Positions 47,246-50,440 of a stretch of 64,000 nt of DNA are shown here, in pieces. This DNA comes from Pontibacter rufus (GTDB lineage Bacteria; Bacteroidota; Bacteroidia; Cytophagales; Hymenobacteraceae), in NCBI RefSeq assembly GCF_015694705.1, contig NZ_JADQDR010000006.1, forward strand, positions 124,001-188,000, written 5' to 3'. Position numbers and translations under genes: made by a program. How positions within the stretch are numbered: the stretch's first letter is position 1; each line of letters begins with the position of its first letter. Under the pieces are notes generated by a model. The model did no database searches. It was not told where the DNA came from and saw only the letters and a program-made list of their open reading frames with translations.

Positions 47246-47253
47246 TATATTTG
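47246..47253 (+). promoter_or_regulatory. -7 promoter box ahead of the cassette array
   Basis: TATATTTG is an exact TAnnTTTG match, 66 bases before the GTTAGGC junction and 85 before the first cassette gene. No TTG stands at the ideal -33 distance. It may be the shared promoter of the cassettes, which carry no strong promoter of their own. Confidence 0.5.
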
Positions 47254-47318
47254 CTAGCTCAGTTCCGCATAACCATCTATATTGGTAATATAGCAGGAAT
47301 ACTTCCTGGTAGCTGGTA

Positions 47319-47325
47319 GTTAGGC
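47319..47325 (+). other. Cassette 1 left junction (R'-type box GTTAGGC)
   Basis: GTTAGGC fits the integron core site GTTRRRY. The bases after the G (TTAGGC) are the first of cassette 1 and are exactly complementary to the R'' box GCCTAAC of the site at its far end (47759-47765). About 40 bases upstream GCATAAC pairs with it at six of seven positions, so a degenerate attI- or attC-like site may be present. Confidence 0.55.
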
Positions 47326-47337
47326 AACATTGTAAAT

Positions 47338-47721
47338 ATGAAAATTATTACTGAAGCTATAAATCAAGAACCATCTCACTCTGTGACTAAGAAGGATATT
47401 GAGACTGTAATTAAATATGTTCCTAAGGACTGGATTGGCGTGGCTCATGTATTTTTGATTGCAGAACAAAAATTTGAAAATTCTAATTGGGACAGGCCAG
47501 TAGTACAAAACCAAACTACTTTCAGGATTCTTTCACGGGGCTTAGAAAAGAAGATAGTGATAAAAGAGTTATTGATTGAGCTGGCTGTAACCCCTGCAAG
47601 GATTTACCCGATGAAATCTCACAAACTGAACAAAGAGCAGAGAAGAAAATTAGAAGAAATGATTCAACCATATTACAAGCGGATATCAGCGGAACTTCAA
47701 CTGGATGAGCAAGGGATATAA
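47338..47721 (+). CDS. Cassette 1 gene: hypothetical protein
   Basis: A 127-residue soluble protein, basic at both ends (SHSVTKKDIETVIKYVPKDW, then LNKEQRRKLEEMI). It contains a strand-rich centre (VAHVFLIAEQKFENS) but no catalytic motif or known family I can recognise. It begins 18 bases after the cassette junction, is AT-rich and lacks an upstream Shine-Dalgarno. It is the first of six same-strand genes in the proposed cassette array. Confidence 0.6.
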   Translation: MKIITEAINQEPSHSVTKKDIETVIKYVPKDWIGVAHVFLIAEQKFENSNWDRPVVQNQTTFRILSRGLEKKIVIKELLIELAVTPARIYPMKSHKLNKEQRRKLEEMIQPYYKRISAELQLDEQGI

Positions 47722-47758
47722 ATCAAAAGGGAATAAAGTACTAGTAAAAAACAACGCT

Positions 47759-47825
47759 GCCTAACAACAGCTAAGCGCCAGCATCGGCCGACGGCCTCCG
47801 CCGCCGCTTAGCCTAACCGTTGGCG
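47759..47825 (+). other. attC-like site of cassette 1
   Basis: R'' is GCCTAAC (47759-47765), L'' GCTAAGCG (47770-47777) pairs perfectly with L' CGCTTAGC (47805-47812), and the R' position reads GTTGGCG (47819-47825). The intervening 27 bases are GC-rich and self-complementary. The R'' box matches the first bases of its own cassette, as expected when the cassette circularises. Confidence 0.7.
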
Positions 47826-47865
47826 TGCATAGGTAATTAATAGAACTCGAAATGAAAGTATAATT

Positions 47866-48060
47866 ATGTCAAAAAGTTATCATGTAACCCGCAAGGATTT
47901 AAAAGGACTTTCGAAAAGGGAGCTTGATGAAATGGCAGAAGATAAAGACTCATTGCTTAATGAATATGCTGAGAAGAGTAGTGTTAAGCGTGAAGTCAAG
48001 AAAAAACGAAAAGAAGAAAAAGATAAGAACAACGATACGCCAACAAACCCTATAAGTTAG
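47866..48060 (+). CDS. Cassette 2 gene: small charged protein
   Basis: A 64-residue, extremely charged protein (KGLSKRELDEMAEDKDSLL in the middle, then KREVKKKRKEEKDK near the end). It resembles a disordered or nucleic-acid-associated peptide. The 3' end of the gene overlaps the R'' box CGCCAAC of the following site, a typical arrangement for cassette genes. No family is recognised. Confidence 0.55.
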   Translation: MSKSYHVTRKDLKGLSKRELDEMAEDKDSLLNEYAEKSSVKREVKKKRKEEKDKNNDTPTNPIS

Positions 48061-48091
48061 CTACGCCACCTTATTGCCCAGCACGTTATGA
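48038..48091 (+). other. attC-like site of cassette 2
   Basis: R'' CGCCAAC (48038-48044) is the exact complement of GTTGGCG that begins cassette 2. L'' CTATAAG and L' CTTATTG pair at six of seven positions. The R' position GTTATGA (48085-48091) begins cassette 3. Confidence 0.65.
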
Positions 48092-48103
48092 GTAAAAGAA
48101 GAT

Positions 48104-48658
48104 ATGAAAACAGCCTTTACCATCTTCACATTATTAGTTTGCTTTACTGCATTTGCCCAACAACCACAAGAAGTAAAAAATGGGGAGTTGATTCCATGGA
48201 GCCAAAGTAATAAGTTGAAGTGGAGTGATTTTCGAGGAGAAGTTAATGGCTCATCTACAGCAGCAACTTGCGCTGTATGGAATTCTTCATTCAAGTACAC
48301 AGATGGTGTACTTGAATGTGAGTGTGTTAATTTGTTTGATAGGTTTCAGTCGTGGACAACTGATACTACATCTACTCAATTATTAGAACATGAGCAATTA
48401 CATTTTGACATTAGCGAAGTCTTCTGTCGAAAAGTTAGAAAGGGAATTGTTGAGCTGCTGGCAACAGAAGATATTTCTGTTGCTGCATATGAAGCATTAG
48501 TGGATAGCTTGGGAAATGAAAGAGATTGTTACCAAGCCTTATTTGACAAGGAGACAGCTTACGGAGTATATGGAACAAAACAGCTTAAATGGAGAAAGAA
48601 AACAGATAGTGAGCTTGATAATCTTAATAGTTTCGCTAACACCACTATAAAAGAATAA
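48104..48658 (+). CDS. Cassette 3 gene: secreted DUF922-type zinc-protease-like protein
   Basis: A 184-residue protein with signal peptide MKTAFTIFTLLVCFTAFA (cleavage before QQPQ). The mature part shows LKWSDFRGEV, a DUF922-like start, and the metal-binding motif HEQLH in LLEHEQLHFDISE (around 108-112), as in DUF922 proteins, which are predicted secreted zinc proteases. Cysteines in CAVWNSS, CEC and CRKV suggest disulfides. It starts 18 bases after the cassette junction. Its function in a cassette context is unknown. Confidence 0.75.
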   Translation: MKTAFTIFTLLVCFTAFAQQPQEVKNGELIPWSQSNKLKWSDFRGEVNGSSTAATCAVWNSSFKYTDGVLECECVNLFDRFQSWTTDTTSTQLLEHEQLHFDISEVFCRKVRKGIVELLATEDISVAAYEALVDSLGNERDCYQALFDKETAYGVYGTKQLKWRKKTDSELDNLNSFANTTIKE

Positions 48659-48671
48659 TAAGAACTTTTGC

Positions 48672-48725
48672 TCATAACCACACCTATACGACCGCTACGC
48701 AGCCGCATAGTCAAGCATATGGGTA
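48672..48725 (+). other. attC-like site of cassette 3
   Basis: R'' TCATAAC (48672-48678) is the exact complement of GTTATGA that begins cassette 3. L'' CTATACG and L' CGCATAG pair at six of seven positions and are followed by TCAAG. The R' position is degenerate, ATGGGTA (48719-48725). Confidence 0.6.
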
Positions 48726-48754
48726 TCAAATCATAATTTATAAAATCAGCACAA

Positions 48755-49282
48755 ATGAAATTTCTTCTTAAGCTAAAGCACTGGCAACTTTTTCTCCTGA
48801 CGTGGGGACTTCCAATGTTGATAAACATCTTCACCTTCTCTCATCCTGAGTTAATGCTTCAAATGTTTCCAGTCATGATGGTTTTCTTTACCCTTGGAAC
48901 CTTAGGGTGGGTATGGGCGATAGCAACAGAGTTAAATCAAAAACTCCCATCAGATGTAAGGCTGAATTCTGGAAGGTTCAAAATCTACTTCTCCATTCCG
49001 ATATTATACATCCTGGGAATCACCATATACATAGCTTTTGTAACAAACGGTTCTGGAGATAGCTCAAATATGGCTGTGGCTGGAGTTGCTATAGTTGTTT
49101 TACACCTGCTTTCTATGGTTTTCATCTTTATGGGTTTACGATTTGCTGCAAAGACAATGAAAACAGTTGAATTAGGAAGGGTCGCAAAGTTCGGGGACTA
49201 TGCAGGTGAGTTTTTCTTAATATGGTTCTCCATTATTGGATATTGGGTGTTGCAGCCACGCATCAACAAGTTAGTAGACTAA
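48755..49282 (+). CDS. Cassette 4 gene: hypothetical membrane protein
   Basis: A 175-residue protein with five hydrophobic helices (LFLLTWGLPMLINIFTF, MFPVMMVFFTLGTLGWVWAI, IYFSIPILYILGITIYIAF, MAVAGVAIVVLHLLSMVFIFMG, EFFLIWFSIIGYWVL). Loops contain basic stretches (KTMKTVELGR). No catalytic motif or family is recognised. It starts about 35 bases after the degenerate junction. Confidence 0.65.
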   Translation: MKFLLKLKHWQLFLLTWGLPMLINIFTFSHPELMLQMFPVMMVFFTLGTLGWVWAIATELNQKLPSDVRLNSGRFKIYFSIPILYILGITIYIAFVTNGSGDSSNMAVAGVAIVVLHLLSMVFIFMGLRFAAKTMKTVELGRVAKFGDYAGEFFLIWFSIIGYWVLQPRINKLVD

Positions 49283-49297
49283 TCAGAGAAGCTCTCA

Positions 49298-49358
49298 TAC
49301 CAACCCAGTGCATGCTTAACCCTTAATGTGAGTCGGGCTTCCTCTATACCTGTCGGTT
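49298..49358 (+). other. Degenerate attC-like site of cassette 4
   Basis: R'' TACCAAC (49298-49304) complements the cassette-4 left edge at five of seven core positions, and the extension ATACC/GGTAT matches fully. The junction GTCGGTT (49352-49358) leads cassette 5. The L'' and L' arms are not clearly paired, so this site is weak. Confidence 0.4.
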
Positions 49359-49377
49359 CAACTTTAACAATGAAAAT

Positions 49378-49785
49378 ATGAAAAAATCAATTTTTACTAA
49401 CGTAGTCTTTTATTGGGCAATTGTTTCAATTCTTGGCGTGCTATTATTATGGAATTTATACTTGACAATTGCTCACTCAAGGCTTGCTGGTCTTTTACCA
49501 ATAAGCATTCAAGCAACTTTACTGGTGCTAATATTTAAAAGGCATGAATATGCAAAGAATGGAATAAAGATTTGGGCTATCATATTTTTAATCGCAAGTT
49601 CAGGATTGCAGCTTTTTGGACGTCTTCTTAAAGACTTATCTGATAGTTTTACGAATGTGGATTTACAACACTATTTAACAACAGGAATAACTATTATAGT
49701 TGGAATTCTAATCGTGAATTATACCAACAAAACTGTAGAAGTAGTAGAGATTATCAAAGAAGAAACTGAACCTAACCACAACTAA
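49378..49785 (+). CDS. Cassette 5 gene: hypothetical membrane protein
   Basis: A 135-residue protein with four hydrophobic helices (VVFYWAIVSILGVLLLW, LLPISIQATLLVLIF, IWAIIFLIASSGLQLFG, YLTTGITIIVGILIV) and a glutamate-rich tail (EVVEIIKEETEPNHN). Its last codons overlap the R'' box ACCTAAC and the L'' arm of the next site. AT-rich, no family recognised. Confidence 0.65.
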   Translation: MKKSIFTNVVFYWAIVSILGVLLLWNLYLTIAHSRLAGLLPISIQATLLVLIFKRHEYAKNGIKIWAIIFLIASSGLQLFGRLLKDLSDSFTNVDLQHYLTTGITIIVGILIVNYTNKTVEVVEIIKEETEPNHN

Positions 49786-49823
49786 ACATCAACTATGCCG
49801 CCGTTTAGTCAAGTCCATTAACC
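49770..49823 (+). other. attC-like site of cassette 5
   Basis: R'' is ACCTAAC (49770-49776, RYYYAAC). L'' ACTAAAC (49781-49787) pairs perfectly with L' GTTTAGT (49803-49809), followed by CAAG as in the cassette-3 site. R' is degenerate, ATTAACC (49817-49823). The extension GAACC matches GGTTC at the cassette-5 left edge. Confidence 0.6.
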
Positions 49824-49836
49824 ACAAAAGAAGAGT

Positions 49837-50385
49837 ATGAAGTTAACACTACCAATGATTGTAGTAGGCCTGCTGTGGTCCTTTACAGCTTATGGGCAGC
49901 ATAGTCTTACAGTGAAGGAAGTTAAATTTGACGGAATATTTGGGGCAGCAGTGAACACTTCTTCAAATGTGCAAACCATATATTGTCTTCTCGGTTTGGG
50001 CTATTTTTTAGCACCAGAATCGGATAATATAGATGTTATTATAGCTAAATGGATTGAAGACCATCCAAATGCAAGAATCATTCCGGTATATACTTTTGGC
50101 CCTATCGCAACAGATGATAAAAGTTCAACGATGACGTACTGCTGGGTAAGTGACAAAGAAGAAAATCTTAATATATGGTTAGTGAAGCAGGGGTGCGTGC
50201 ATGGACAGAATTTGCAGTATCCAACGAAAGAGATTAAGAAGCAAATGGGAATGGACCAGTTAGATAATAATAGCTACGAACGGGTTCATATCAATGATTC
50301 TGAATATCAGAAATTTATACAACTCGCCAAGGATGCTACGACTTACGCTTTTGAAAATAAACTTGGCATCTGGAAAGTAAAATAG
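49837..50385 (+). CDS. Cassette 6 gene: secreted, weakly nuclease-like protein
   Basis: A 182-residue protein with signal peptide MIVVGLLWSFTAYG (cleavage before QHSL). The C-terminus resembles the end of staphylococcal-nuclease-like domains (LNIWLVKQGCVHGQ, then ATTYAFENKLGIWK, matching the pattern LV-x-x-G and A-x3-GLW), but the catalytic arginines are not obvious, so activity is doubtful. It begins 19 bases after the preceding junction and is AT-rich. Confidence 0.55.
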   Translation: MKLTLPMIVVGLLWSFTAYGQHSLTVKEVKFDGIFGAAVNTSSNVQTIYCLLGLGYFLAPESDNIDVIIAKWIEDHPNARIIPVYTFGPIATDDKSSTMTYCWVSDKEENLNIWLVKQGCVHGQNLQYPTKEIKKQMGMDQLDNNSYERVHINDSEYQKFIQLAKDATTYAFENKLGIWKVK

Positions 50386-50393
50386 TAACCTGT

Positions 50394-50424
50394 GGGTAAC
50401 AAAAGCATTATGCAAACGTCCCAC
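50394..50424 (+). other. Terminal attC-like site of the array
   Basis: R'' GGGTAAC (50394-50400) with its CTGT extension complements the start of cassette 6 (TTAACCACAA) at eight of ten positions. CTGTGGG and CCCACAG at the two ends pair perfectly around a 23-base loop. It marks the right end of the array, 17 bases before the convergent deacetylase gene ends. Confidence 0.5.
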
Positions 50425-50440
50425 AGCCATTCAACCATAC

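Follow-up and report, generated by a model that had tools for sequence, protein, structure and literature searches.

A putative integron lineage with an I2-less integrase in Pontibacter and its relatives

Integrons are commonly recognised by their integrase, IntI, yet here we describe cassette arrays in Pontibacter that stand beside a different recombinase. The starting point was a 64,000-nucleotide stretch of Pontibacter rufus (NCBI RefSeq assembly GCF_015694705.1, contig NZ_JADQDR010000006.1, positions 124,001 to 188,000; hereafter, the window), in which an earlier note, made from the letters alone, had placed an integron-like cassette array at positions 47246-50440 of what it took, rightly, for a Bacteroidota chromosome. 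Our analysis suggests, with a probability that we put at about 85%, that there is a working integron lineage whose integrase lacks the additional (I2) domain of IntI, and that the array in the window is a satellite of it, resembling a cluster of attC sites lacking an integrase (CALIN). The window array, comprising six cassettes and an attI-like stub, is partly decayed and has no recombinase nearby. What the earlier note had not seen is that contig C19 of the same genome bears another such array, a long one, which directly follows a tyrosine recombinase that is not an IntI.

If an array is built from circular cassettes, the R'' box of each site must pair with the start of its own cassette and not with the junction that follows. 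Over 148 consecutive site pairs, R'' matched its own start at a mean of 3.09 of the four variable bases, whereas pairing with the adjacent junction gave 1.68 and shuffling 1.57 ± 0.08, and the self-pairing was perfect (4/4) in 89 of the 148. As a positive control, the same rule was applied to class 1 integrons of plasmids, where it recovered the known cassettes. Own-start pairing, together with the recurrence of cassettes with junction breakpoints (see below), bears out the integron logic proposed for the array.

When the segment was searched against relatives, it was the sites, more than the genes, that recurred across Pontibacter. A first covariance model was built from 42 sites, and its stem covariation exceeded that of 500/500 shuffles and of all slid controls. 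The genomes searched were mostly drafts; in those of the same genus, the site model found 5-49 sites in each (24/24), and P. rufus was also positive, with 56 attC-like sites. Within the order but outside the family, sites were found in only 2 of 14 genomes (4 and 1 sites). Because a class-wide search with the Pontibacter-trained model gave mainly single weak matches outside Hymenobacteraceae, the site families are lineage-specific, and the arrays of other families carry longer sites that this model sees weakly. In some arrays of other Cytophagales families, the sites measure ~130 nt, and related I2-less recombinases of such families (40-55% identity) adjoin self-pairing arrays (L096, L145, L142 and L147). 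At L145 (499-13383), several of the ~130-nt sites are near-identical (CCCCAACAATAGCTATAAGAGACC...), their length recalling the Vibrio cholerae repeats.

The recombinase, a tyrosine recombinase of ~485 aa, is encoded just upstream of the main arrays in Pontibacter. At 78 named loci, every site match lay downstream of it and on its strand (132/132 at E<=0.01 and 32/32 at E<=0.5). Full-length enzymes with at least 55% identity have Pontibacter, Rufibacter, Botryobacter, Adhaeribacter and Sabulibacter as named hosts, and complete systems are present on mobilizable plasmids of P. kalidii (NZ_CP111080.1) and Rufibacter tibetensis. We also observed IS110-family transposases within these plasmid arrays (P. 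kalidii, L153, 23207-24562; R. tibetensis, L154, 27286-28344); IS110/IS1111 elements target attC sites. In P. rufus itself, contig C19 ends within the recombinase gene, and the sites of its long array are found from ~1 kb downstream on. Recombinase genes of this kind are often found at contig ends, as would be expected if the repetitive array breaks assemblies. The complete genes (59-93% identity) are open in dozens of species, and their catalytic residues are invariant. Remnants of the recombinase occur elsewhere in the P. rufus genome, at C2:11599-11865 (L011, L095) beside sites at C2:10307 and 10754, and at C21:224558-224674 (L013) beside a site at C21:225374. With them, the genome holds two further copies of the system, both decayed, and such decay is a likely way for orphan arrays to arise.

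This enzyme is not an IntI. A domain near patch III, the additional (I2) domain, is the defining trait of IntI (PMC9668308, PMC4792948), and was found by Messier and Roy (2001), as cited in PMC9668308, to be needed for activity. The TIGR02249 profile scored the Pontibacter recombinase at ~208 bits (cut-off 265), leaving profile positions 180-241 unmatched, and the distance from the KDR box to HxxRH, 103 residues in 27/27 IntI, had a median of 61 in 18 Pontibacter/Rufibacter enzymes. Judged by its sequence, the recombinase lacks the I2 domain. In a tree from which the insert columns were left out, 17 IntI, including IntI1, formed one clade that excluded the Pontibacter-type enzymes (support of 100 in the Shimodaira-Hasegawa-like approximate likelihood ratio test, SH-aLRT). 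The latter fell in a wider group with IntI, separate from XerC/XerD, in which the inner branches near IntI had values of 84-94 and some were long. A Bacteroidota-type intI, which the earlier note had advised searching for, thus proved to be the wrong target: canonical IntI was above the curated cut-off in 0/50 Pontibacter genomes. Across the phylum, it was found in 105/396 genomes, only one of them in class Bacteroidia (G459, C40:3592-4530).

The closest solved structures to the catalytic core of the recombinase, both by sequence and by fold, are XerA proteins. Its N-terminal module (residues 1-205) is predicted to be a duplicated small beta-alpha fold, spanning residues 9-75 and 111-179 (mean predicted local distance difference test score 80, predicted template modelling score 0.45). 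For this module, no Pfam family scored above cut-off, no PDB sequence matched below E 0.018, and a fold search gave no match below 4e-3, with low probabilities; it may take over site recognition. In a genome of the same order (G028), we noted a 326-aa relative of the recombinase in eight near-identical copies (e.g., C1:337967-338590), and TnpF-type proteins ~50% identical to this short relative are found on many Acinetobacter plasmids; both are possibly transposon recombinases of the same broad family.

Between the recombinase stop and the first cassette lies a leader of about 130-190 nt (CACATAGTGCAGATAA... hairpin ...CAGTA), which is conserved among ~28 loci. The conserved stretch runs up to TA^GTT and no further; beyond it lie unrelated cassettes, which places a putative attI-like site with a G^TT junction at the start of the array. 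We also inspected the 30 bases that close the recombinase gene and the 30 that follow its stop (L193-L249), where a TTG-N19/20-TAtATTAG motif straddles the stop in 34 of the 43 loci that have the box, the box being absent in 19/62. Bacteroidota promoters have the layout TTTG/TAnnTTTG; the motif fits this layout and may be a cassette promoter.

Folding the bottom strand of the sites had been proposed as a check of the array. When folded as DNA, the bottom strand was the more stable in 184/186 sites (13/14 in class 1 controls), with 2.3 G-T pairs per site compared with 0.14 on the top strand. In minimum-energy folds, an inner-stem bulge of one or two bases was present in 22/146 sites, compared with 10/10 canonical class 1 sites, and a symmetric 1x1 mismatch replaced it in 102/146. 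In canonical integrons, extrahelical bases drive the strand choice of IntI (PMC2727003), and it is these bases that the I2 domain accommodates (PMC4792948). The absence of I2 from the recombinase and the scarcity of extrahelical bases in the sites are mutually consistent.

The array in the window consists, as had been described, of six short plus-strand genes alternating with palindromic sites in an AT-rich segment (37.7% G+C, versus 48.3% in the window). In agreement with the claim that no integrase lies beside it, the integron-integrase family gave no match at E<=0.001 in the window's stretch of the contig, and Rfam gave no match within the array. A second covariance model, with no training site from P. 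rufus, was used to search the 64-kb window. This model recovered four sites, 48038-48091 (E 1.2e-11), 47759-47825 (1.1e-10), 49770-49823 (3.7e-7) and 48672-48722 (0.01), and beyond these gave zero matches on either strand of the window. Two small corrections apply to the first description: site 2 starts at 48038, and cassette 4's own site is 49298-49362, of another subtype. The features, in order, are:

47251-47318, plus strand: attI-like left end without integrase; hairpin AGCAGGAATACTTCCTGGT..., end GGTA^GTT
47319-47818, plus strand: cassette 1; start GTTAGGC, with R'' GCCTAAC at 47759 its exact reverse complement
47338-47721, plus strand: cassette 1 gene; 127 aa, no Pfam match
47759-47825, plus strand: attC-like site 1; 67 nt, intact, 54.7 bits, E 1.1e-10
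47819-48084, plus strand: cassette 2; start GTTGGCG, with R'' CGCCAAC its exact reverse complement
47866-48060, plus strand: cassette 2 gene; 64 aa, no Pfam match
48038-48091, plus strand: attC-like site 2; 54 nt, intact, 58.7 bits, E 1.2e-11
48085-48715, plus strand: cassette 3; start GTTATGA, R'' TCATAAC at 48672, exact self-pairing
48104-48658, plus strand: cassette 3 gene; 184 aa, weak DUF922 match below cut-off
48672-48722, plus strand: attC-like site 3; R' core decayed (GTT to ATA), 21.2 bits, E 0.01
48716-49355, plus strand: cassette 4; homologues in four other Pontibacter genomes, in unrelated places, 70-83% identity
48755-49282, plus strand: cassette 4 gene; 175 aa, hydrophobic, no clear Pfam match
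49298-49362, plus strand: attC-like site 4; other subtype, TACCAAC ... GTTCAAC
49356-49816, plus strand: cassette 5; junction GTTCAAC at 49356, gene homologue in another genome
49378-49785, plus strand: cassette 5 gene; 135 aa, no Pfam match
49770-49823, plus strand: attC-like site 5; R' decayed to ATTAACC, 39.9 bits, E 3.7e-7
49817-50430, plus strand: cassette 6, tentatively assigned; degenerate end with hairpin 50390-50396 / 50420-50426, no site found by the models
49837-50385, plus strand: cassette 6 gene; 182 aa, no Pfam match

The left end, 47251-47318, is the window's top match to attI-like leaders, above all to that of P. rufus itself (score 31-33; shuffled controls 18 ± 2.3, maximum 26, n=300; second-best site in the window 30), and we regard it with moderate confidence as an orphan attI-like site. 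While the exact pairing claimed for cassettes 1-3 was confirmed, the looser pairing claimed for cassettes 4-6 was borne out in part. The GTT core of cassette 4 is mutated, yet its four variable bases pair (start ATGGGTA, R'' TACCAAC at 49298-49304); cassette 5 pairs poorly, and no site was recognised for cassette 6. Site 4, which models R1 and R2 miss, was recognised by alignment with an intact homologue elsewhere (TGCCAAC...GTTATGC). Three sites of the array show decay.

Cassette 2 has homologues in P. rufus itself, on C21 (91%), and in a further Pontibacter species (84%), and in both cases the identity is confined to the cassette, from GTT junction to GTT junction, as had been predicted for its breakpoints. 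Where cassette 4 recurs, the readable junction is an intact GTTGGCA in place of the decayed R' core of site 3. Since cassettes 2 and 4 recur elsewhere with breakpoints at the junctions, the window array belongs to a mobile set and has partly decayed, and the aligned copies show cassette mobility with exact breakpoints. Six genes fixed as an ancestral operon, the outcome that was to have refuted the integron reading, were not seen; single cassettes recur elsewhere one by one. No empty orthologous site was found in other Pontibacter genomes, because the flanking peptidase and deacetylase genes are not adjacent there.

Cassette genes were on the array strand in all 129 tested, with a median length of 172 aa, and stand 25 nt behind the junction. 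Among 81 cassette genes scanned with Pfam, most had no family, and the recurrent matches were to SUKH/SMI1 immunity-type and other small domains. As to a defence role of the cassettes, PADLOC gave few matches, among them a single DarG-like macro domain and some candidate systems.

Taken together, these results point to a system that would be native to Pontibacter and its relatives, made up of the recombinase gene, an attI-like leader behind its stop, and a same-strand array of promoterless genes, each closed by an attC-like site. We infer that the linked integrase excises a cassette as a circle and re-inserts it at G^TT, acting on a single strand, namely the folded bottom strand of the site; such a cycle would make each R'' pair with the start of its own cassette rather than the next. 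The recombinase carries the ~200-aa duplicated N-terminal module in place of the I2 domain, and strand polarity would be kept by conserved mismatches, with G-T pairs formed on the bottom strand only. The window array would then be either a relic left after integrase loss, or a set of cassettes captured at a secondary site. Several points weigh against this scheme: the integrase-array linkage is a correlation, some genomes (G006, G014) have arrays without this integrase, the training sites of the models are mostly from one genus, the bulge counts derive from minimum-energy folds and a comparison with just 10-14 canonical sites, and the pairing rule describes cassettes 5 and 6 poorly.

The cassettes could instead be moved by canonical IntI of other hosts or of mobile elements, with the linked recombinase incidental and the arrays passive CALINs. 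While the attC-like sites, their bottom-strand folding as in class 1 attC, and the presence of canonical IntI elsewhere in the phylum (in the 105/396 genomes mentioned) would all suit such a scenario, it is rendered quite improbable by the lack of IntI above cut-off in any of the 50 Pontibacter genomes, by the position of 164/164 sites downstream of the linked recombinase and by the conserved leader that runs from the recombinase to the array and ends at G^TT. Moreover, most of the sites are without the extrahelical bases read by IntI, and class 1 attC sites go undetected by the model trained on Pontibacter, the best of them scoring 14.5 bits.

We also considered whether the arrays are dead relics, once functional but with cassettes that are now immobile, as the decayed junctions in the window and the recombinase remnants beside sites on C2 and C21 might suggest. 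This is unlikely given the open reading frames and invariant catalytic residues of the complete recombinase genes in dozens of species; furthermore, the junction breakpoints and the array contents, which differ between species, imply movement, and self-pairing is intact in most cassettes. Genes on one strand with hairpins between them could likewise be an ordinary operon with intergenic palindromes, i.e., terminators or repetitive extragenic palindromic (REP)-like repeats. However, the R'' of each site matches the start of the gene that precedes it, a pairing foreign to terminators and REPs, and individual gene-plus-site units recur in unrelated neighbourhoods; on the basis of this self-pairing and one-by-one recurrence, terminators and REP repeats were rejected, and we consider an operon extremely improbable.

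The putative I2-less integron system shares with the IntI-attI-attC integrons (e.g., class 1 and the Vibrio cholerae superintegron) same-orientation cassettes of gene and site, R''/R' self-pairing, the G^TT junction, a bottom strand that folds better, a recombinase-side site at the array start, and mostly unknown small genes. It differs from them in that its recombinase lacks I2, falls outside the IntI clade and bears the ~200-aa N-terminal module; in addition, its array begins behind the 3' end of the recombinase gene on the same strand, its attI-like leader is a hairpin, and its sites are mostly without extrahelical bases. The window array resembles a CALIN in having at least two attC-like sites (four model matches) and no integrase nearby, yet its parent system has a non-IntI recombinase, and IntI-based searches would probably either overlook even complete Pontibacter arrays or class them as CALINs. 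The catalytic core recalls Xer recombinases (XerA/XerC/XerD), its best solved structures being XerA, whereas multi-copy cassette arrays with tens of sites per genome, the leader site and the N-terminal module set the system apart from Xer/dif, and Xer proteins group elsewhere in the tree, with the Pontibacter recombinase outside XerC/XerD. Canonical integrons are known from other Bacteroidota classes, e.g., Salinibacter (PMC9024848); these belong to the same phylum in the Genome Taxonomy Database (GTDB) and have attC arrays, but their integrases are true IntI, which match the whole profile, mostly at ~280-497 bits, versus ~208 for the Pontibacter enzyme.

The literature presents I2 as the unique domain that enables integrases to read attC, and Escudero et al. 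(2016, PMC4792948) called its origin a chicken-and-egg paradox: which came first, the attC sites or the I2 domain? In the open-access literature (PubMed Central only), we found no description of an I2-less integron system of this kind. It is conceivable, though we would stop short of calling it probable, that the Pontibacter system is a distinct Bacteroidia integron lineage, with an I2-less integrase and attC sites without extrahelical bases, that may correspond to the pre-I2 state of the IntI integrons, in which case attC-type cassettes would have preceded the recognition domain. The IntI branch may have gained I2, or the Pontibacter-type enzymes may have lost it. Self-pairing attC-like cassettes beside I2-less integrases make the question of attC first or domain first directly testable. 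Moreover, integron gene capture would have been overlooked in a whole group, as IntI-based surveys render Bacteroidia nearly integron-free, with one genome of the class above the IntI cut-off, yet every Pontibacter genome searched has sites.

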